Positions 19,537-29,862 of a stretch of 32,481 nucleotides of DNA are shown piece after piece. The first letter of the stretch is position 1. Each line of letters starts with the position of its first letter. The notes below the pieces were generated by a model. It did no database searches. It worked only from the letters and a program-made list of their open reading frames with translations, and had not been told where the DNA came from. Source of the stretch: Calditrichaceae bacterium (GTDB lineage: Bacteria > Calditrichota > Calditrichia > Calditrichales > Calditrichaceae); NCBI GenBank assembly GCA_024762535.1, contig JANTHG010000010.1:1-32481 (forward strand). Reading direction: 5' to 3'. The position numbers were made by a program, and so were the translations under genes.

Positions 19537-19611
19537 GGCAATTCCCCAAAAATGGTTTTTAATGAATTTAATGAATTGTAAGAAAAAACAAAATTTTTGA
19601 AATTCTATGTT

Positions 19612-19855
19612 GAGGGATTGTTGATATAAACCCAATACAATACCGTCATTACGAGCGAAACAAACCCACATAGGATCACCACGTTGCTATCGCTCAATCC
19701 CCCCTTAGCAAAGGGGGGTAGGGGGTTGTAAAATCTGTATAATGCAATAATTGCCTATTAAAAAAATACCCCCCTTAGTCCGCCTTGATAGGAGGGACGT
19801 TATGGCAGCAACCACAACAGCGGTCGCAGGAGCGAGGGAATCGCTCCATTCAGGT
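19612..19855 (+). repeat. Composite intergenic repeat, copy A (degenerate)
   Basis: This copy fills most of the 333-bp gap between the ALDH and DMT-transporter genes. It starts near GAGGGATTGTTGATATAA and ends AATCGCTCCATTCAGGT. The C/G-run core at 19695-19761 aligns with copies B and C apart from a few changes, and includes a hairpin of CCCCCCTT and AAGGGGGG around AGCA. The flanking GTCATT-type modules are short and degraded. The right end is 14 bp from the DMT gene's stop codon. The rest of the gap (19537-19611, 19856-19869) shows nothing. Confidence 0.85.
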
Positions 19856-19869
19856 TGTAGGTCATTATT

Positions 19870-20721
19870 TCAGGCAGACAGCTCCGCACTAATCATGCCC
19901 ACTACAATCAGCAGGCCGCCCAGCCAGCCGGTAAGGGTTAGGGATTCTCCAGCGACAAGAAAGGCAAAAAGTGCAGCAAATACCGGTTCCATGGCAAAAA
20001 TCAGCGCGGTGCGGGCAGTGGTGGTAAAGCGCTGCATGGCCGTTTGCATTAAAAAGGTGAACACCGTCCCGAACAGACCAAGATAGATTAATGTTTCCCA
20101 GTGCCTGAGCGTAAGCTGCGGCCAGCTGAACCGGCTGAATGGCAAGGCAAGAACGGACAGTAGCGCTACTACCGTAAGCTGCACAGCCGTGAGTAAATAG
20201 ACATTGTGCCGGGTTGCAAATTGGCCGGTGTAAATCACATGAAAGGCTACTGCAACTGCGCAGATGAGTACCAGCAGATCGCCGTCATTCCAGTGCAGCG
20301 GATTGGCACCGGTCAGCAGAAGAAGGCCTACAACGGCAAAACCAATTCCGAACAGCACATTTTTGGATGAGCGTACCTTAAAAAAGAAAAAACCGAAAAC
20401 CGGCACCAGTACCACGGAAAGTCCGGTAATAAAACCGGCATTAGATGCGCTGGTGAACTGGATACCCCACATCTGAAATAAGTATGAAAGATAAAGTAAA
20501 GCGCCCAGCACGGCACCGTGTTGGAGCACTCCGTGATCCCACTCTTTACGAAATCGAAAAGCAAAGAGGTCCATCGCCACGGCGGCAATACTCAAGCGTA
20601 AGGCCATATACACGGGTAAAGGTACATCTACCAGCAGTAACTTGGAGATAATGAAGGTGGTGCCCCAGAAAAATGTTACGGAAAGCAAACCTAAATCGGC
20701 GCGGAGTTTAGAAATGGCCAT
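19870..20721 (-). CDS. DMT-superfamily transporter with two EamA domains
   Basis: The 283 residues show about ten hydrophobic segments arranged as two EamA repeats (about 10-140 and 145-280), the drug/metabolite transporter layout. The first repeat opens with GLLSVTFFWGTTFIISK and the second with DLLVLICAVAVAFHVIYTG. Such inner-membrane carriers usually export amino acids, amines or other small metabolites; the substrate cannot be read. The ATG at 20721 is 14 bp downstream of the trmJ-like gene's stop, so the two are probably one transcript. The start has no clear Shine-Dalgarno site, consistent with coupling. The 3' end stands next to repeat A. Confidence 0.9.
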   Translation of the reverse strand: MAISKLRADLGLLSVTFFWGTTFIISKLLLVDVPLPVYMALRLSIAAVAMDLFAFRFRKEWDHGVLQHGAVLGALLYLSYLFQMWGIQFTSASNAGFITGLSVVLVPVFGFFFFKVRSSKNVLFGIGFAVVGLLLLTGANPLHWNDGDLLVLICAVAVAFHVIYTGQFATRHNVYLLTAVQLTVVALLSVLALPFSRFSWPQLTLRHWETLIYLGLFGTVFTFLMQTAMQRFTTTARTALIFAMEPVFAALFAFLVAGESLTLTGWLGGLLIVVGMISAELSA

Positions 20722-20735
20722 AGACGGATTCTCGC

Positions 20736-21524
20736 TTAATGGATTTCCCGTTTAGAAGCAGAGAGGGAGTTGGCCTCCAGGTCGTGGATGCGTGTTTCGA
20801 AGATTTGCAGTAATTTGTGCAGCAAACGCACATCACGGTGCTCGGCCATGGAACGACCAATCAGGCGTCGGATGCGGGTAATAAAATTATCAATGCCGTC
20901 GCGTGGGACAAAATTTACAAGTCGCAACGCATCGTCCAAATGCTCATAAAACTTTTGCAGCTCATATTGGGAGGCTAGTTCGTACGCATAGGTTTGGTCT
21001 ACCTGATTCATTTTTTCAAAAAAAGTATGCGCGTACAACATCACCGCCTGGGATAGATTAAGTGAAGGGTTTTGCGTGGCCGTGGGAATGGTGGAATGGA
21101 GTTGACATTTCAGAATCTGTTCGTTGGTCATACCGGTGCGCTCCGGTCCGAACACGATGGCTACCGGCTGTTCCAAAGCGACAGGTAAAATTTTTTCACT
21201 GATTTCGGCCGGTGTAAAATAAGGGAATTTAAAATGCCGGCTGCGCATGGAAGTGGAAATCACCAGCCGTTTATCGGCAATAGCGTCATCAAAGGTTTGC
21301 ACAACCGTTGCTTTTTGTACAATATCCAAACTGCGGTGCGCCAGCATGCGTACTTCGGGCGTATCCAGTTCGCAGGGATTTACTAAAGTCAGTTTGTGAA
21401 AACCGCTGGTTTTGAGAGCGCGGGCCACGGAACCCACATTACCCGGCGACTCCGGCTCTACCAGTACAAAATGCAAATTATTACGAATCCGTTCAAACGA
21501 TTCGCTAAGCTCGGTTCGTTGCAT
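20736..21524 (-). CDS. trmJ: tRNA/rRNA 2'-O-methyltransferase of the SPOUT class, TrmJ-like
   Basis: The protein has 262 residues counted from the ATG at 21524, which has AGAGGA upstream. The open frame extends 29 codons further into repeat B, and that extension is rejected. The SPOUT motifs are complete: Asn29 and Arg35 in PGNVGSVARAL, FGPERTG at 125-131 and IPTATQNPSLNLSQA at 146-160, which form the knotted AdoMet site. Length and motifs match TrmJ (2'-O-methylation of position 32 of tRNA) better than the longer TrmH or RlmB, though an rRNA target cannot be excluded. The C-terminal helical part (about 175-262) fits the TrmJ dimer extension. It is followed by the DMT transporter gene at 14 bp. 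Confidence 0.85.
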   Translation of the reverse strand: MQRTELSESFERIRNNLHFVLVEPESPGNVGSVARALKTSGFHKLTLVNPCELDTPEVRMLAHRSLDIVQKATVVQTFDDAIADKRLVISTSMRSRHFKFPYFTPAEISEKILPVALEQPVAIVFGPERTGMTNEQILKCQLHSTIPTATQNPSLNLSQAVMLYAHTFFEKMNQVDQTYAYELASQYELQKFYEHLDDALRLVNFVPRDGIDNFITRIRRLIGRSMAEHRDVRLLHKLLQIFETRIHDLEANSLSASKREIH

Positions 21525-21562
21525 CACTTTCTTTCCTCTTAGTCGAGCGATTGTTGATATAA

Positions 21563-21645
21563 CGTCATTGCGAGTGACGCAGGAGCGAAGCAATCCCCAG
21601 GGGATCGCCACGTCGTTCGCTTACGCTCACTTCTCGCGATGACGA
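21563..21645. repeat. REP-like imperfect palindrome inside repeat B
   Basis: CGTCATTGCGAG at the left and CTCGCGATGACG at the right pair in 11 of 12 positions, and the centre is ATCCCC-A-GGGGAT, so the whole 82 bp can fold into one long imperfect hairpin. The GTCATTGCGAG...GAAGCAATC pattern resembles dispersed REP-like repeats known from several unrelated bacterial genomes. Confidence 0.75.
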
Positions 21646-21738
21646 ATGCGTTTCGTCCAATCCCCCCTTAGAAAAGGGGGTTAGGGGGTTGTAAAATCTG
21701 TACAATGCAATTTGTCCATTAAAAAAACACCCCCCTTA

Positions 21739-21760
21739 GTCCCCCCTTGACAGGGGGGAC
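21739..21760. repeat. Perfect C-run/G-run hairpin in repeat B core
   Basis: GTCCCCCCT and AGGGGGGAC form a perfect 9-bp stem around TGAC. The same stem occurs at 29632-29653 in copy C, while copy A (about 19778-19799) has a degraded version. There is no T-run after it on either strand, so it is not a standard terminator. Confidence 0.9.
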
Positions 21761-21874
21761 GTTATGGCAGCAACCACAACGGCGGTCGCAGTGACGAAGC
21801 AATCCCTCTGCAGATTGCCACATCGCTGTCGTGATGCGCGATGACGAATTGGAATCGCTCAAATCAGGTTTCCA

Positions 21875-22573
21875 TTATAATTTTATTTCTGTTTTATGTT
21901 TCAGCTCGATCTTTTGCGGGCTCAGATCTGCGCGGTAAGCCAGTAATTCCACACCGCCTGTCTGTACCTTTTTTAACGCGCCGGCATATGCGGGATCGAT
22001 ATGCACCGCAGGTTCAAAATGGCTGCCATCCGTACGCTGAATAGCAAACAGCATTACAGCCCGGTGTCCCTGAGCCACCATTTCCTGCAATTCATATAAA
22101 TGTTTTAAGCCCCGTTTGGTAACCGCATCCGGAAAACGGTACACACCATCCGCTTCGACCAGGGTTACATTTTTCACTTCCACGTAGCAGCGTTCGCGCT
22201 CCGATTCCAACAGAATGTCCACACGGCTGTTTTGGCCATACCCTACTTCCGTACGCAGCGAGGGGTACCCGCTCAGTTCGGGAATCCATCCGCTTTCAAT
22301 TGCTTCAACAGTTAGTTTGTTGGCCAAATGCGTATTGATGCCAATCCAGCTTACACCGTTGTGTACCAGTTCCCAGGTATATTTGAGTTTTCGTTTGGGG
22401 TTGTCCGCCCGGCTCAGGCGCACGTCCCAGCCCGGTTCCGCACAGGTTTTCATGCTGCCGGAGTTGGGACAGTGCGCCGTTACCACCTTTCCGTCTTCTA
22501 ACCTTACATCGGCTAAAAATCGTTTGTAGCGTTTAATCAACATTCCGCTAAGCAGATTTTGCTCAAATTGCAT
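21875..22573 (-). CDS. sfsA: SfsA family protein (sugar fermentation stimulation protein)
   Basis: The 232 residues are close to the usual length of SfsA (about 230). Family motifs are visible along the chain: KRYKRFLADV near the start (OB-like part), CPNSGSMKTC, INTHLAN, and the nuclease-like core SRVDILLES followed by CYVEVKNVTLVEADGVYRFPDAVTKRG, with the Asp, Glu and Lys of a PD-(D/E)XK-type site. SfsA was first described as a sugar-fermentation regulator in E. coli; its fold suggests nucleic-acid binding or cleavage. The ATG is 3 bp after the M16 peptidase gene's stop, so translation is probably coupled (AGGGGA lies about 12 nt upstream, inside the M16 gene). Repeat B begins 5 bp past the stop. 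Confidence 0.95.
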   Translation of the reverse strand: MQFEQNLLSGMLIKRYKRFLADVRLEDGKVVTAHCPNSGSMKTCAEPGWDVRLSRADNPKRKLKYTWELVHNGVSWIGINTHLANKLTVEAIESGWIPELSGYPSLRTEVGYGQNSRVDILLESERERCYVEVKNVTLVEADGVYRFPDAVTKRGLKHLYELQEMVAQGHRAVMLFAIQRTDGSHFEPAVHIDPAYAGALKKVQTGGVELLAYRADLSPQKIELKHKTEIKL

Positions 22574-22576
22574 GTA

Positions 22577-25411
22577 CTACTTTTTCCCCTGTTCCGGAAG
22601 CAGCACCACGCGTACATACACATCGGGATTGAGGAACGTGTTGGCCGTACGCATCACATCCTTCATGGTTTGCGCCTGAACCAGTTCGTTACGTTGTAAA
22701 ATACTTTCCGGCTTCTGTCCATTCCAGTAGGCCTGTTTTAAAGCGCTCAGCCAGAAATTGTTCTTTTTGAGGCTGGTTTCAAATTCCCGCGCGCTCATGT
22801 TTTTCACTTTTTGCAAATAGGATTCATCCACACCAAACTGGCGAATACTGTCTATTTGAGCAAACATATCAGCTGTGAGTTCATCCACGCGCTGTGGGTC
22901 ACAGCCAAACGATATGTTAATGGAATAGCGTTCTCTCGGAAAATGATTGGCGCGTACGCTAACGCCTACGCCATAGGTACCGCTTTTACTTTCGCGTAGA
23001 TATTCCCGCAGTTTAATCCGTAGCACACCCACAAAGGTATTTAACTCGGCTACGGTTTTATCGGACCAGTCAAAGCTGCCCGGAAAAATAAAATTATTTA
23101 AACTTTTCGGCTCAACACCTTTATGAAAAATATTAACCGTTTTCTTCTTCGGATAGGTGAAGGTGTTATTCGCCCAGGATTCTTTCCGGCCGTGTGTGGG
23201 CAGACCACCGAGATATTTTTCGACCAGCGGGCGCAAATGTTTTTTGGTGAAATTGCCTACAAATACAAAAGTAAAATCATCGGCATCGGCAAACCGCTCA
23301 CGATACACGCGAAATGATTTTTCCATATCGAGCTTATTCAGTGTTTTCAGAGAAAGCGGCTGAAAACGCGGGTGATGCTGCGTAAAAGTAGCGGTAACCG
23401 AATCCTGATAGGCCGCTTCGGGACTGCGGTCTTTGTTTTCGAGATAGGATTTTATTTTTGTTAAATAGGAGCGATAGGCGCTGCTGTCTTCCCTCGGCGA
23501 AGTAAATTCCAAATAGATAAGCTGAAACATGGTTTCAATATCCTGAGGCGAGGCCGAACCGGACATCCCCTCGGATAATTCACCGATATACGAGCCCACA
23601 TGGGCCATCTTTCCGGCCAGCTTTTTCTGCAACTGCACAGAACTGAAGGCGCCAAATCCACTGTTTCCAATAATGCCGGCAGCCGTTTTAGCGGCAAACA
23701 AATCCTCATCCGGAACCAAAGAATAGCCGCCCGGACTGAAGGCCGTAAAACTAATTTCATCATTCTTGAAATCCGTAGGCTTAAGAACCACTTTTACACC
23801 GTTCTGCAGCGTCCATTCGGTTACATCCAGTGTGTCAATTTTTTTTTCCGCGACTACTTTGCCGGCAGTCGGTTCCTGAGCGAGCAGCGGCTGGTCAACC
23901 GCATCATCTTTATATGGGGTTAGCTGAGCAGTTGCCACTTTTTGCTGAACAGCCATCAGTTCTTCTTTGGTCGGAACAGGTTGCCCCTCTTTTTGCGGAG
24001 CGGATACCACAAAAACCCGGTTATGCGGCTGAATCCATTTATCGGCCAGTTGATTTATTTCCTGCAATGAGATGCCCGGTAAAAAGCGTTTGTACATTTC
24101 AAATTCATAACCAATACCCGGAATCGGTTCATCGTTTAGGAAATTTCGCTTGTACTCATCAGCGTAGCGGCGCGATTCATTTTTATCCCGTTCCATATAG
24201 GCTTTTTGCATGGAACGCAGCATATCCTGTTTCTGGCGCATTAGTTCACTTTGCGTAAAACCGAATTCCGCTACGCGCTTTGCTTCGGTTAGCATGGCTT
24301 CGGTTGCACGCTCTAACTGCCCCGGGCGCGCCATAGTACTAACGGTGTAGGTTTCTGTTGGTCCCACAAACTGTCCGGCACCGGCATAGGCGTAAATAAA
24401 AGGCGGGTCTTCTTTTTGAGACAATTCCTGATAGCGCTGGTTCAGCAGGCCGGCGAAAATCCGTTTGACTATCCCTTTACGGTAATCGCCATCCGTTACT
24501 TCCTTTTCTAAGGGATAAACGTTAAACATACTTAGGGTTGTGCTGGTTGCTTCCGGGTCTGTGGCAATGGCGTACAAAGTCTCTTTATGCCCGGGCACGG
24601 AGTAGGTTTTGCGTACCGGCAGAGGAGAGGGATTGGTTAACGGTTCAAAATGGCGGCGAATCAATGCTTCCATTTTATCCACATCCAAATCACCTACGGC
24701 AACTACGGCCATTAAGGATGGATGATACCAGGTTTTGTAGAAACGGCGCAGGGTTTCGTGTTTAAAGGTATCCAGCACTGCTTTTTGTCCGATAGGCAAT
24801 CGCTGAGCGTAACGGGAGTCTTTAAGAATGATTGGCAATTGTTTATCCAGCATACGCTGCTGTGCGCCGCGTCCCAAACGCCATTCTTCAATCACCACAC
24901 CGCGTTCTTTGTCGATTTCTTCATCATCATAAGTTACATGCGCGGCCCAGTCTTCTAGCACATAAAAACCCTTGTCTAAAACTTCTTCATCATCGGTGGG
25001 AATTTGCAGCATGTACACGGTTTCATCGAAGCTGGTGTAAGCATTTAAATCCGCGCCAAAACGCATGCCAACGGATTCCAGAAAATTAACCAGCGCCTGT
25101 TTATGGAAATGTTCCGAGCCGTTAAAGGCCATGTGCTCGCAAAGATGAGCCAGACCCTGCTGGTCATCGGTTTCCAGCACAGAACCGGCTTTAACCACGA
25201 GGCGCAGTTCTACCCGTTTTTCTGGCTTGGCATTGTGGCGAATATAATAGGTTAACCCGTTTTTAAGCGTTCCCTTGTGTACCAATGAATCAACGGGAAG
25301 CGTCCATTCGGAATAATCGGGTTTGGCCTGAGGTATTTTTGCCTGTTTTGGTGTGCAGGAAAAGAGTAAAGAAAGAAACAAAAGCGTTAGAATAAGTTGA
25401 ATCGATTTCAT
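22577..25411 (-). CDS. M16-family zinc peptidase, predicted lipoprotein
   Basis: The protein has 944 residues counted from the ATG at 25411, preceded by AGGAG; the longer frame up to 25543 is rejected because a clean lipoprotein signal begins here. The hydrophobic segment ends LLFSC, giving a lipidated Cys19. The inverted zinc motif HLCEH is at 89-93 and the downstream glutamate in KERGVVIEEW (Glu169 or Glu176) completes the site. The protein contains two M16 halves (about 50-480 and 550-940), the second without the zinc motif, as in PqqL-like and bacterial pitrilysin-like peptidases. It should sit on a periplasmic membrane face and degrade peptides. It is the first gene of the minus-strand run leading to sfsA. 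Confidence 0.93.
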   Translation of the reverse strand: MKSIQLILTLLFLSLLFSCTPKQAKIPQAKPDYSEWTLPVDSLVHKGTLKNGLTYYIRHNAKPEKRVELRLVVKAGSVLETDDQQGLAHLCEHMAFNGSEHFHKQALVNFLESVGMRFGADLNAYTSFDETVYMLQIPTDDEEVLDKGFYVLEDWAAHVTYDDEEIDKERGVVIEEWRLGRGAQQRMLDKQLPIILKDSRYAQRLPIGQKAVLDTFKHETLRRFYKTWYHPSLMAVVAVGDLDVDKMEALIRRHFEPLTNPSPLPVRKTYSVPGHKETLYAIATDPEATSTTLSMFNVYPLEKEVTDGDYRKGIVKRIFAGLLNQRYQELSQKEDPPFIYAYAGAGQFVGPTETYTVSTMARPGQLERATEAMLTEAKRVAEFGFTQSELMRQKQDMLRSMQKAYMERDKNESRRYADEYKRNFLNDEPIPGIGYEFEMYKRFLPGISLQEINQLADKWIQPHNRVFVVSAPQKEGQPVPTKEELMAVQQKVATAQLTPYKDDAVDQPLLAQEPTAGKVVAEKKIDTLDVTEWTLQNGVKVVLKPTDFKNDEISFTAFSPGGYSLVPDEDLFAAKTAAGIIGNSGFGAFSSVQLQKKLAGKMAHVGSYIGELSEGMSGSASPQDIETMFQLIYLEFTSPREDSSAYRSYLTKIKSYLENKDRSPEAAYQDSVTATFTQHHPRFQPLSLKTLNKLDMEKSFRVYRERFADADDFTFVFVGNFTKKHLRPLVEKYLGGLPTHGRKESWANNTFTYPKKKTVNIFHKGVEPKSLNNFIFPGSFDWSDKTVAELNTFVGVLRIKLREYLRESKSGTYGVGVSVRANHFPRERYSINISFGCDPQRVDELTADMFAQIDSIRQFGVDESYLQKVKNMSAREFETSLKKNNFWLSALKQAYWNGQKPESILQRNELVQAQTMKDVMRTANTFLNPDVYVRVVLLPEQGKK

Positions 25412-25617
25412 TGGGTCTCCTATGGTTAAATAGATTGAATTTGGTAAGTTAACGGACTTGCCAGCATCTTGCAAACACTTTATTACGATTGCAGGACAGC
25501 ATACAGAGTACACGGGATGACTAAGGAATATTTTTGAATACATCCAATAGGTATATTTATAGTTTTGTTTTTTCTCATTTTGTGTTTGCTATATCATAAT
25601 TTGTAGCAAATGGCCTG

Positions 25618-25645
25618 TTAGCCCCATCGTTTTCGATGGGGCTAA
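25618..25645. repeat. Perfect 12-bp hairpin in the 356-bp divergent gap
   Basis: TTAGCCCCATCG and CGATGGGGCTAA pair perfectly around TTTT. The gap (25412-25767) separates the divergent M16 and membrane-protein genes, so this is not needed as a terminator, and no T-run follows. It could be a leader hairpin of the plus-strand gene, an operator, or a dispersed repeat. Nothing else is clear in the gap. Confidence 0.85.
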
Positions 25646-25767
25646 ACCCAAAACTAATATTAAACAGCCTTGTTTAAAGCCGATAGCTTTGCATCCTCTG
25701 CTTGCATTTGCAAACTTTATCGCTTAAAATAGGATTGGTAAATCGCTACTTAATACAGGACCTTCTG

Positions 25768-26646
25768 ATGAAGGAACGCACCTTCTCGTTTGTGGATAAC
25801 AGCTTTGACCGCCTGGAATCCTGGTGGGAATCAGAAAAAATGCACGCCCGGGTGGGCTACACGCTGGTCTTTGCTTTTCTTGCCGCTTTGGTTCTTATCG
25901 AACTGAATCGTCAGGGATGGCTGCCGGCTTCTGTAGCACATAAGCTGCCGGTGAATCATTTTCATGCGGTGGGATTTGTTTTCAATTTACTGCTTATTAT
26001 CGAAGTGATCGCACTCGTATTCAGTCTGGTGCATTCCGTATCCGAATCCGTTGGCAAGCAATTCGAAATTTTATCGTTGATATTACTGCGCTCCACGTTT
26101 AAGGAATTTGTCCACTTTACGGAACCCATTCACTGGACGAAATTATCCGAGCCCATTTACCATATTTTGGCGGATGCAGTGGGCGCACTGGTTATTTTTA
26201 TCATTCTGGGTTTTTACTACAAACTGCAAAAACACCAGCCTGTTATTTGTGACGAGCAAGAAAAAAACCGCTTTATCCTTTCCAAAAAAGCGTTGGCGCT
26301 TATTCTGCTATTCGTATTCACAGCTATCGGTGTTGTGTACTTGTGGGATTTGTTTGACGGCCTTCCAACGTTTGACTTTTTCGCTATTTTTTACACGATA
26401 TTAATTTTTTCAGATATCCTGGTTGTACTGATTTCGTTGCGCTATAATTACAATTATTTTACCCTGTTCCGTAATTCCGGTTTTGCGCTGACTACCGTGG
26501 TTATTCGCCTGGCACTCACAGCGCCGCCTTACATTAATCTTATTTTCGGTATTTCCGCTGCTTTGTTTGGTATTTTACTGACACTGGCCTACAATATCAT
26601 GGCACCCGACGAGGCCACAGTTAATCCAGAGGAAGCGAAAAAATAA
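25768..26646 (+). CDS. Polytopic membrane protein of unknown function
   Basis: The protein has 292 residues counted from the ATG at 25768, with AGGA about 8 nt upstream; an in-frame TTG at 25702 is a poorer start. About seven hydrophobic segments are visible: near 29-46, 70-90, 137-157, 175-195, 205-225, 235-250 and 255-275. The short charged N-terminus (FSFVDNSFDRLESWW) is probably cytoplasmic. Between the second and third segments is a conserved-looking amphipathic stretch (SVGKQFEILSLILLRSTFKEF). I do not recognise the family. The last 26 bp overlap the end of the convergent metalloprotease-fusion gene. No function is proposed. Confidence 0.8.
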   Translation: MKERTFSFVDNSFDRLESWWESEKMHARVGYTLVFAFLAALVLIELNRQGWLPASVAHKLPVNHFHAVGFVFNLLLIIEVIALVFSLVHSVSESVGKQFEILSLILLRSTFKEFVHFTEPIHWTKLSEPIYHILADAVGALVIFIILGFYYKLQKHQPVICDEQEKNRFILSKKALALILLFVFTAIGVVYLWDLFDGLPTFDFFAIFYTILIFSDILVVLISLRYNYNYFTLFRNSGFALTTVVIRLALTAPPYINLIFGISAALFGILLTLAYNIMAPDEATVNPEEAKK

Positions 26647-29434
26647 ATTCGTGTCGCGCTTTTTTCTGCACAAAAGGATAGGAAAAACGGTAGCCCATTT
26701 CCAATTCTACAGGAAATGAAAACCAGAAATGGTCGAACAGTATCTCCATTCCGGCCGACTGCCGATAGGTTCGACCCGACTCCCCAAACACTTTTCCCGC
26801 ATCGTAAAAGAGATTGGCTCTTACGCGTTTCAAATAGAACCAGGCGCTAAGGTTCCAGTCCGGATAGAAGAGGGGCAATGCATAATCGGCGCTAAAAAGA
26901 GCGGACTGTTTATGGAAGCTAAAGGAATATCCGCGCGGAAAGGGCAAATAAGAGGGGAAGCGGTAATTCAGCGGATGTTGCCATTCGTACCCCAGGGTAA
27001 TCCGGAAACTGTGATGTTTAAAAAGACCCGGGAAATAGAGCCGCGCTCTACCCCAAAAATGCGCGCCTGTGTAATCTCCGGAAAAGGGTGTGTGCTCAAA
27101 CAACGCTTCTGCTATCTGTGCCCATTGCCGGCGTACATCTTTTAAGGCATAGGCCCACACTCTTGCAAAGGATAATGCATAGCGCAAAGGATAAAAGGAA
27201 CCGTTATTGACTTCAAAGTACAGCGGAATACGGCGATTCTCTACCTGAATGCTCTGTACCGCAACGGATAATTGCAGCTGACGCCGGCAACTGCCGGTAG
27301 AAAAATTGAAAGGAAGATGTACGGCGGCCGTCAACATATTTTCCGCCCAACTGTCCGTAACTGAACCACCGGAAGTTGTTTTATATTGTGCGGAACGGTA
27401 CAAACGCTGCGCGCCAACTTCCACAATGGGATACCAGCCGCCATACGAAAAACCGGCCTGATACCCTAATTGCTTTTCCTGTTGATTGTAAAAAAGTCCT
27501 GCGCTAGCAGCTGCTGTATTTAACACATTATTCGATAAAACGATGACGCCTGTGTTCAGCGAATCTGGTGAAATCAGCCAGCTATGAAAGTGAAACAGAT
27601 GCCGGAAGGGATGGTAATCCTTAACAGGATATTCGATGTGCGGCACGTGGTCATCACTCAGAATTTCTTGTCCCTGTTCCTGTTGTACAAAGGAATCGCT
27701 AAAGGCAATGCTGCGGTCTTTCACCTGTTCCAGGTCTTTCCATCTATCGGGATTCAGTCCCATTTTGGCCGCCCGAAAGCCCAGTGCCGCATAGTCATTA
27801 AAGAGTAAACTGTCTCCGTTTAGACTGATGGCAGGATTGAAGGCGCCAAAGGGTCGGGAGGTTACCTGAAAAACATGGCCGGAGGAAGGATGTAACGCGT
27901 AAATACTGTAAATACCGGAATAGCCGGAGCTAAACAGCACATAGTCCTTCCAGAAAACCGGTGTCATCATACCCAGCCAGTTGGCCGGCAACACGTCGCG
28001 CATGGTTCCGCTTTTTACATTGAGCACCGTTAAAGCTTTGCCTTCCGCTGATTGACGGGTAAAAACGATTTTTTCCCCATCAGCAGACCAGGAAGGCGTC
28101 TTAATCCGAAAGCCCTCCGGAATGGAGAAGCGCTGCACTACCTTACCATCCTTAGTATTAAGGATAACCAATCGGGTTTTCCGACTGACCGTAAATTCCA
28201 CCGCTGCAATCTGCCGGCCATCGGCCGAAAGTACAGGCGTAAAAAATTTACCATGCCGGGTTAGCCGTTTGGTTTGAGCGGTATTAAGATTGTACACCAG
28301 GATATCCGAATAATTTTGTTTGCCCCAGCGCCACTGTGCCCGGTATTCGGCCCAACAAATCAGGGAATCGCGCACCGAAATGCGGTCCATCGGTACAATC
28401 TCTTTAAGATCCTTTTCGGTACCGGTTTTGGTTAACAACGTCAGAGAAGGTGCATCGGCAATGCCGCTTTTTAGAACCACATACCCGCTATCTGTCTGCT
28501 GTGGGTAGGAGTAATTGGTGTAATCGTCTAAGGATTGCGGCGAAAGCATTTGTAAGGGCGTTTCCGGCAGGCTGTCTACCTGAGCCGTCCACAAGGAATC
28601 GTATTCATTGAGCGTGCGCTCGTAAAGCGTTGGCGCGTTGATGCCTGTTATGCCACGCACCGAAGCGGAAAAAGCAAAAGGGAAAAAGGAAAGAAAGGTG
28701 CTGCGCCGCAGGATATCGGCCCAAACTCGCGGGTAAAAATATTTCCGCGCGTAGCTGACCTGTAAAAAGCCGTAGGGATAGGGATTGGGCACATAGTCTT
28801 TGTAGGAACCGAACAGGGTGGTATAATAGGAATAACGCTTACCGCTAAGTTCCAGTGCACGGATTTCCATATCAAAATCCGCTTTGCGTCCGCGTCCGCC
28901 TTTACTGAGAGCGGTTTCCATGAATACGGCGTCCCCTTCCCAGAACCAGCGTGGAATCAGAGCTGAACTCACCAGCAGCGGCCCCAGCTCGCCGGCTACC
29001 AGTCCCCAAAAATAACGGTTAAGTCCGCTCTGGGACAAACGGCGATACTGGGCCACATGCCGCATTTCGTGCGAGGCCAGCAGGGCATACCAGCTTCCGT
29101 CATCCGAGCCGGTTAAAAAAGGCGTGCCGTAAAATTCGCTGCGCAAGGGTGCCATAGTTACATAACCGTTGGCAATCACACTGTTGGTGCTCAGTAAAAG
29201 CGGCAGTCGGCTAAAGGGCGCAGGCATTGTTTTTTGCTCCGCCGGATACACCACTTCCAAACGATTGGCCAAATGCAAGGCCTGCTGTCGGATAGAATCG
29301 GGAAAGATTAAATCGAAGTGTTTGGTAGCAATGGTTTTCCACTGTACCGATGGCGGATCCTGGCTTGCGTCCAGCGATTGTGAAAAAACCAACATTGGAA
29401 GAAGAACGAACAATATCCAAATAAAAGATTTCAT
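26621..29434 (-). CDS. Secreted peptidase-MA-like / TolB-propeller / surface-antigen-barrel fusion
   Basis: The protein has 937 residues counted from the ATG at 29434, which has CGGAG upstream. A signal peptide covers about 1-20 (VFSQS). A gluzincin-type domain (about 30-270) has HEMRH at 122-126 and the third-ligand candidate Glu166 in WFWEGDAVF, the peptidase-MA arrangement. Next is a TolB/WD40-like beta-propeller (about 300-580), with repeats of the type SADGRQIAAVEFT, WSADGEKIVFTRQ and SLNGDSLLFND. The last 270 residues resemble the C-terminal barrel of surface antigen/Omp85-type proteins (GYEWQHPLNYRF, LFYDAGKVFGESG, final FIFSLPLD). The zinc site looks intact. It is expected at the outer membrane. 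Repeat C lies just upstream. Confidence 0.82.
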   Translation of the reverse strand: MKSFIWILFVLLPMLVFSQSLDASQDPPSVQWKTIATKHFDLIFPDSIRQQALHLANRLEVVYPAEQKTMPAPFSRLPLLLSTNSVIANGYVTMAPLRSEFYGTPFLTGSDDGSWYALLASHEMRHVAQYRRLSQSGLNRYFWGLVAGELGPLLVSSALIPRWFWEGDAVFMETALSKGGRGRKADFDMEIRALELSGKRYSYYTTLFGSYKDYVPNPYPYGFLQVSYARKYFYPRVWADILRRSTFLSFFPFAFSASVRGITGINAPTLYERTLNEYDSLWTAQVDSLPETPLQMLSPQSLDDYTNYSYPQQTDSGYVVLKSGIADAPSLTLLTKTGTEKDLKEIVPMDRISVRDSLICWAEYRAQWRWGKQNYSDILVYNLNTAQTKRLTRHGKFFTPVLSADGRQIAAVEFTVSRKTRLVILNTKDGKVVQRFSIPEGFRIKTPSWSADGEKIVFTRQSAEGKALTVLNVKSGTMRDVLPANWLGMMTPVFWKDYVLFSSGYSGIYSIYALHPSSGHVFQVTSRPFGAFNPAISLNGDSLLFNDYAALGFRAAKMGLNPDRWKDLEQVKDRSIAFSDSFVQQEQGQEILSDDHVPHIEYPVKDYHPFRHLFHFHSWLISPDSLNTGVIVLSNNVLNTAAASAGLFYNQQEKQLGYQAGFSYGGWYPIVEVGAQRLYRSAQYKTTSGGSVTDSWAENMLTAAVHLPFNFSTGSCRRQLQLSVAVQSIQVENRRIPLYFEVNNGSFYPLRYALSFARVWAYALKDVRRQWAQIAEALFEHTPFSGDYTGAHFWGRARLYFPGLFKHHSFRITLGYEWQHPLNYRFPSYLPFPRGYSFSFHKQSALFSADYALPLFYPDWNLSAWFYLKRVRANLFYDAGKVFGESGRTYRQSAGMEILFDHFWFSFPVELEMGYRFSYPFVQKKARHEFIFSLPLD

Positions 29435-29530
29435 GAGCGCTCCGTTACACAAATTATGTAGCCTTTTTTGTGAACCAACAGGATGTTGTTTTCGTGTTTG
29501 AACAGCGTTAAAACATCACTCACAACTTAA

Positions 29531-29839
29531 ATTGAGCGAATCCCTCGTCATCACGAATCGCGACAGCGATGGGACGATTTTCAGAGGGATTGCTTCACTC
29601 TTGCGACCGCTGTTCTGGTTGCTGGCATAACGTCCCCCCTGTCAAGGGGGGACTAAGGGGGGGGGGTTAATGGACAAATTGCATTGTACAGATTTTACAA
29701 CCCCCTAACCCCCTTTTCTAAGGGGGGATTGAGCGATAGTAACGTGGTGCCCCCCTGTGGGATTGCTTCATCCCGCTCACACGGGATTCGCAATGACGAT
29801 AAGGGGTTGGGGTTATATCAACAATCGCTCCATTCAGGT
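29531..29839 (-). repeat. Composite intergenic repeat, copy C (inverted relative to A and B)
   Basis: This copy occupies most of the 428-bp gap between the metalloprotease-fusion and recQ genes. Read on the minus strand it starts ACCTGAATGGAGCGATT and TTGATATAA, like A and B, and ends ATTCGCTCAATTTAAGT. The 65 bases at 29667-29731 are identical to copy B. The core has a run of ten G (29657-29666) where B has a shorter C-run interrupted by A. The end at 29839 is 23 bp from the recQ stop codon. The part of the gap at 29435-29530 holds no recognised feature. Confidence 0.87.
29632..29653. repeat. Perfect C-run/G-run hairpin in repeat C core
   Basis: GTCCCCCCT and AGGGGGGAC pair over 9 bp around GTCA, the same stem as at 21739-21760 with the loop reversed as expected for the inverted copy. 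Confidence 0.9.
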
Positions 29840-29862
29840 ACAAATTATTTTTAGTGTAATTC

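Follow-up and report, generated by a model that had tools for sequence, protein, structure and literature searches.

What kind of element are the three similar segments (A, B and C) that lie between genes in this DNA, and which enzyme would have moved them? The window, the whole stretch of 32,481 nucleotides that was analysed, is one entire contig (C10) of genome G000, a 3.27-Mb assembly in 317 contigs that is 89% complete. A preliminary description had read the segments as three copies, with C in the opposite orientation, of a composite, non-autonomous mobile element bounded by terminal inverted repeats. The three copies and the inversion of C were reproduced by a repeat search, and the reading as a mobile element is supported by dispersed copies, defined ends and a 5-bp target duplication. 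We consider it highly probable that A, B and C are non-autonomous MITE copies whose CCTRARTYGAGCGATT ends are those of an insertion sequence, of the IS1380 family, that belongs to this family of bacteria; this assignment connects a repeat family that had no name with one particular family of transposases.

On reading A, B, C and about 30 other copies, the true left end was placed at CCTRARTYGAGCGATT and the true right end at AATCGCTCMATTYAGG, and the elements therefore start about 8 bp outside the left ends given earlier, which had missed the terminal CCTRARTY octamer (Table 1). Similarity does stop at the terminal repeats, as had been proposed, and was not seen to continue past them into the flanking genes. 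The interior of A consists of a hairpin repeat, M1, in truncated form and a module, M2; the interiors of B and C consist of M1, M2 and then a second, partial M1. M2, the C/G-run core, is common to all three elements and is also found elsewhere outside these ends; it is thus a separate module, in agreement with the earlier description of the element as composite.

Table 1. Elements, interior modules and target duplications located in the window.
Feature	Position	Strand	Description
Element A	19604..19854	+	251 bp; left end decayed TCTATGTTGAGGGATTG, right end AATCGCTCCATTCAGG
Element B	21537..21868	+	332 bp; TCTTAGTCGAGCGATT...AATCGCTCAAATCAGG; between spoU and sfsA
Element C	29526..29838	-	313 bp; CCTGAATGGAGCGATT...ATTCGCTCAATTTAAG; inverted relative to A and B
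Module M1 in B	21563..21650 (approximate limits)	+	hairpin repeat CGTCATTGCGAG...CGATGACGA
Module M2 in B	21659..21790 (approximate limits)	+	two inverted C/G-run hairpins, joined by GTAAAATCTGTACAATGCAA
B target duplication, left copy	21532..21536		TTTCC
B target duplication, right copy	21869..21873		TTTCC; perfect
C target duplication	29521..29525		CACAA; 4/5 bases match TACAA
C target duplication, other copy	29839..29843		TACAA

All three elements are intergenic, with genes on the same strand, and they were rightly described as non-coding: none has a coding frame of its own, and only the N-terminal extensions of neighbouring open reading frames run in. The extension of spoU (GTG at 21611) enters B and that of the aldehyde dehydrogenase gene (ATG at 19671) enters A, giving the longest reading frames artificial N-termini (21525-21611 from B for spoU and 19537-19671 from A for aldehyde dehydrogenase). 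No counterpart of the spoU extension was found in the sequences of relatives. This is a practical hazard, in that automatic gene calls for both genes extend the N-termini into the elements.

A, B and C belong to a dispersed family, of which this bacterium has dozens of copies. In a search of the genome for further copies, an 18-base left end gave 57 matches at ≤3 mismatches compared to 5 for the reversed control, and an extended, 26-base left end gave 41 matches compared to 0; whole-element similarity was found in 61 matching stretches across the genome. The two-ended copies of G000 are 72–416 bp in length and have no internal open reading frame of their own. M2 is present in 10 of these 24 copies, and the others contain one or two M1 hairpins, with one copy being just 72 bp.

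Target duplication was evaluated by comparing the k bases to the left with the k bases to the right of two-ended copies, for k = 2–9, against shuffled pairings; for the right end of each copy, the position that best fitted the consensus was used, and copies that had been read twice, once on each strand, were manually reduced to one. At k = 5, it was found that 160 of 220 bases matched in 44 two-ended copies, compared to 106.8 expected (z 9.0, 0 of 5000 shuffles), and 14 pairs were perfect, compared to 1.9 expected. The other lengths (k = 2–4 and 6–9) were near chance, with z values of −0.4 to 2.0. The 5-bp signal was present both in G000 (z 6.0) and in other genera (z 5.4), and the duplicated target was A+T-rich, the perfect targets being TTAAA, TAATA, TAAAA, TTAAT, TTTAT, TTATA, TTTTA and TTTCC. 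Of the elements in the window, B has a perfect duplication and C one that matches in four of five bases, whereas none was recognisable for A, which is flanked by GAAAT and TTGTA.

Sites without an element were sought in relatives. Other genomes of the family have sfsA and spoU in the same order, and in 9 of the 12 relatives with a readable junction, the gap between the two genes is about 0–20 bp, whereas in the window, B sits between them. The remaining three relatives (G005, G009 and G010) have other sequence at this junction, namely, unrelated inserts of about 145–315 bp (L131, L127 and L138, respectively). Deleting B together with one TTTCC gives TAATGGAAAGAAAGTGATG, which consists of a stop codon, a 13-bp spacer with a ribosome-binding-like GGAAAG and a start codon. 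Judged from these gene orders, B splits a near-abutting sfsA-spoU pair, with an empty site at the level of genes and not base for base because the comparison genomes included none of the same genus. The case of A is weaker: in one relative, G010, eamA and the aldehyde dehydrogenase gene are neighbours separated by about 50 bp that contain no element, which suggests an empty site at the gene level, the spacer itself not being alignable. For C, the recQ neighbour and the gene order are not conserved in relatives.

An IS1380-family enzyme was proposed because of the CCTARATT ends and the 5-bp duplications, as in ISEcp1. This member of the IS1380 family has a left inverted repeat CCTAGATTCTACGT, a right inverted repeat that is the reverse complement of ACGTGGAATTTAGG and, as in the family described here, ends that begin with CCTARATT and direct repeats of 5 bp (PMC7864471). 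Unlike ISEcp1, A, B and C have no transposase, are only 251–332 bp long and have ends that differ after the first 8 bases (GAGCGATT). A target duplication of 4–5 bp is expected of an IS1380-derived element, and 5 bp was found.

The Pfam IS1380-type domain PF13701 is present in 8 of 21 genomes of the order, and in relatives a transposase of this kind (NF033539/PF13701) lies beside the same ends. In G002, a PF13701 match on contig C348 adjoins an end that was located independently by pattern search; the 468-aa open reading frame matches the NCBIfam IS1380 transposase model NF033539 at 219.8 bits (cut-off 180), with AATCGCTCAATTTAGG downstream. Only a single end can be recognised at this full-length gene (L114), with rearrangement on the upstream side. 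Another locus of G002 (L081) is an internally deleted derivative, in which both ends are present and the first and last parts of this gene lie between them; internal deletion of an insertion sequence is the usual start of a MITE. In G011, an IS1380 transposase remnant is preceded on its upstream side by CCTAAGCTGAGCGATT, at a distance of about 115 bp, and there are nine such ends in that genome. The ends of the family therefore match those of IS1380 insertion sequences at the G002 and G011 loci. Seven identical ends CCTAAATTGAGCGATTGTTGAAAATT in G004 all lie no more than about 130 bp from the edge of a contig (L140, L147, L151, L155, L159, L162 and L165) and probably belong to one multicopy insertion sequence that was lost in assembly, the gene itself not being seen. 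A scan of named genomes with the transposase gave a match to the G002 assembly alone. From these loci, the mobilising enzyme is likely to be an IS1380-family transposase. No IS1380 transposase was found in G000, at 89% completeness, by family (PF13701) or by protein search, and we therefore infer, from the relatives, that such an enzyme moved the copies in this genome; most of these copies are probably decayed and inactive now.

According to this explanation, the two ends would be bound, and the unit moved, by an IS1380-type transposase that came from elsewhere, and insertion would duplicate 5 bp of an A+T-rich target. The interior would be passenger DNA, made up of M1 hairpins, of which there are often two, with the C/G-run module M2 present in one subfamily. 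A, B and C have the same M1-M2 junction at different targets, which indicates that the M2-bearing composite moved or multiplied as a unit.

Duplications of 5 bp are not exclusive to IS1380. A different DDE transposase family that makes them (Tn3-, IS1634- or ISH3-like) could have moved the elements, with the IS1380 linkage in G002 and G011 due to chance insertion, and the failure to find an IS1380 gene in G000 is in keeping with this. However, an end adjoins an IS1380 gene in each of these two genomes independently, and the layout of the left end is shared, with CCTAARCTGAGCGATTTTTTT standing about 115 bp ahead of the ATG; by shuffling, the probability of a 16-base match at ≤3 mismatches in that stretch of 200 bp is about 0.002. 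Furthermore, the terminal CCTAAATT also ends an IS1380 element of G001, which has a TTTAA duplication at one copy, as well as the right end of ISEcp1. We therefore regard a different DDE family as improbable.

Insertion by a RAYT-type Y1 transposase does not produce a target duplication, and the clear 5-bp duplication argues against the view that A, B and C are REP/BIME-like hairpin arrays spread by such an enzyme or by recombination, with the terminal repeats being part of a long hairpin. The interior is indeed rich in hairpins (predicted folding energy of B, −150.9 kcal/mol; z −8.0), and G000 has one RAYT (PF01797), but this gene is not intact and has other REPs (CCCCATCGTAAACGATGGGGCTAAC) on its flanks, and the interior varies among genera while the ends are constant. 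This origin of the elements is very unlikely, although a REP/RAYT route may account for M1 and M2 themselves. The strong predicted folding and the position of all three copies between same-strand genes would also suit functional RNA or terminator structures kept for regulation, with mobility secondary or ancient. An Rfam model search of the elements gave no match, however, no terminator-like site was found inside them, and promoter-like counts were at the shuffled level. Given also that the interior varies from copy to copy and that there is nothing at the sfsA-spoU junction in nine relatives, a regulatory role as the explanation has, in our estimate, the smallest chance of these alternatives. 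The RAYT of G000 was itself considered as the mobilising enzyme and rejected, since the REP on either side of this gene, which lies on contig C20, is a different one. This locus (L050:2026-2369; G000:C20:12725-13068), a frameshifted RAYT with REP-like CCCCATCGTAAACGATGGGGCTAAC repeats on its flanks, represents a separate REP system.

The IS1380-derived family was compared with known small elements. Correia elements (CREE), the Tn3-derived TIMEs and the IS1182-derived MITEPye1 are likewise small and non-coding, with inverted IS-like ends and target duplication (PMC4133298; PMC11578231), and the family of A, B and C differs from them in having ends of the IS1380 type. A limited search of the open-access literature found MITEs of the Tn3 and IS1182 types and none derived from IS1380, and a search for the M1 sequence returned unrelated papers only. 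As in REP/BIME sequences, M2 consists of two inverted C/G-run hairpins and a joining spacer; unlike them, the pair is carried inside transposon ends, and the RAYT of G000 is flanked by other REPs. The features of a MITE that were tested were found, and the elements are best classed as a new family of IS1380-derived MITEs with a familiar mechanism.

The least ordinary feature of the family is the swapping of cores, in which the same ends enclose different hairpins in different bacteria. The same IS1380-type ends surround a GTGGCTGAGCTTGTCGAAGCC hairpin in G011 and M1-like variants in G009; of two cores in G010, one is M1-like and the other has TTCCC/GGGAA hairpins. Conversely, M2 occurs without these ends at four loci (L017, L018, L022 and L024), between CTGTCCTAAATAA-type ends. 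It is possible, though in our judgement rather doubtful, that the IS1380-type ends are an interchangeable frame for varied hairpin families and that M2 passes between the unrelated frames CCTRARTYGAGCGATT and TGTCCTAAATAA. If so, hairpin repeats would spread by hitchhiking in, and exchange between, transposon frames and not by RAYT enzymes alone, and a real exchange of cores would be a second route, besides RAYT, for short palindromic repeats across bacterial genomes.

The second frame around the M2 core at the four loci above (G000 contigs C215, C198, C106 and C57, respectively) reads CTGTCCTAAATAATCAAGACACC / TTTGTGTTCTTTATTTAGGACAG, and ends like TGTCCTAAA are also present in G002 (L081). 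By eye, no definite target duplication was made out in four copies of this frame. A hairpin, GTAAGGATTCAATGCTTTGAATCCTTAC, is often found directly to the left of the element, mostly with GATA between the two (L058, L062, L067, L069 and L080).
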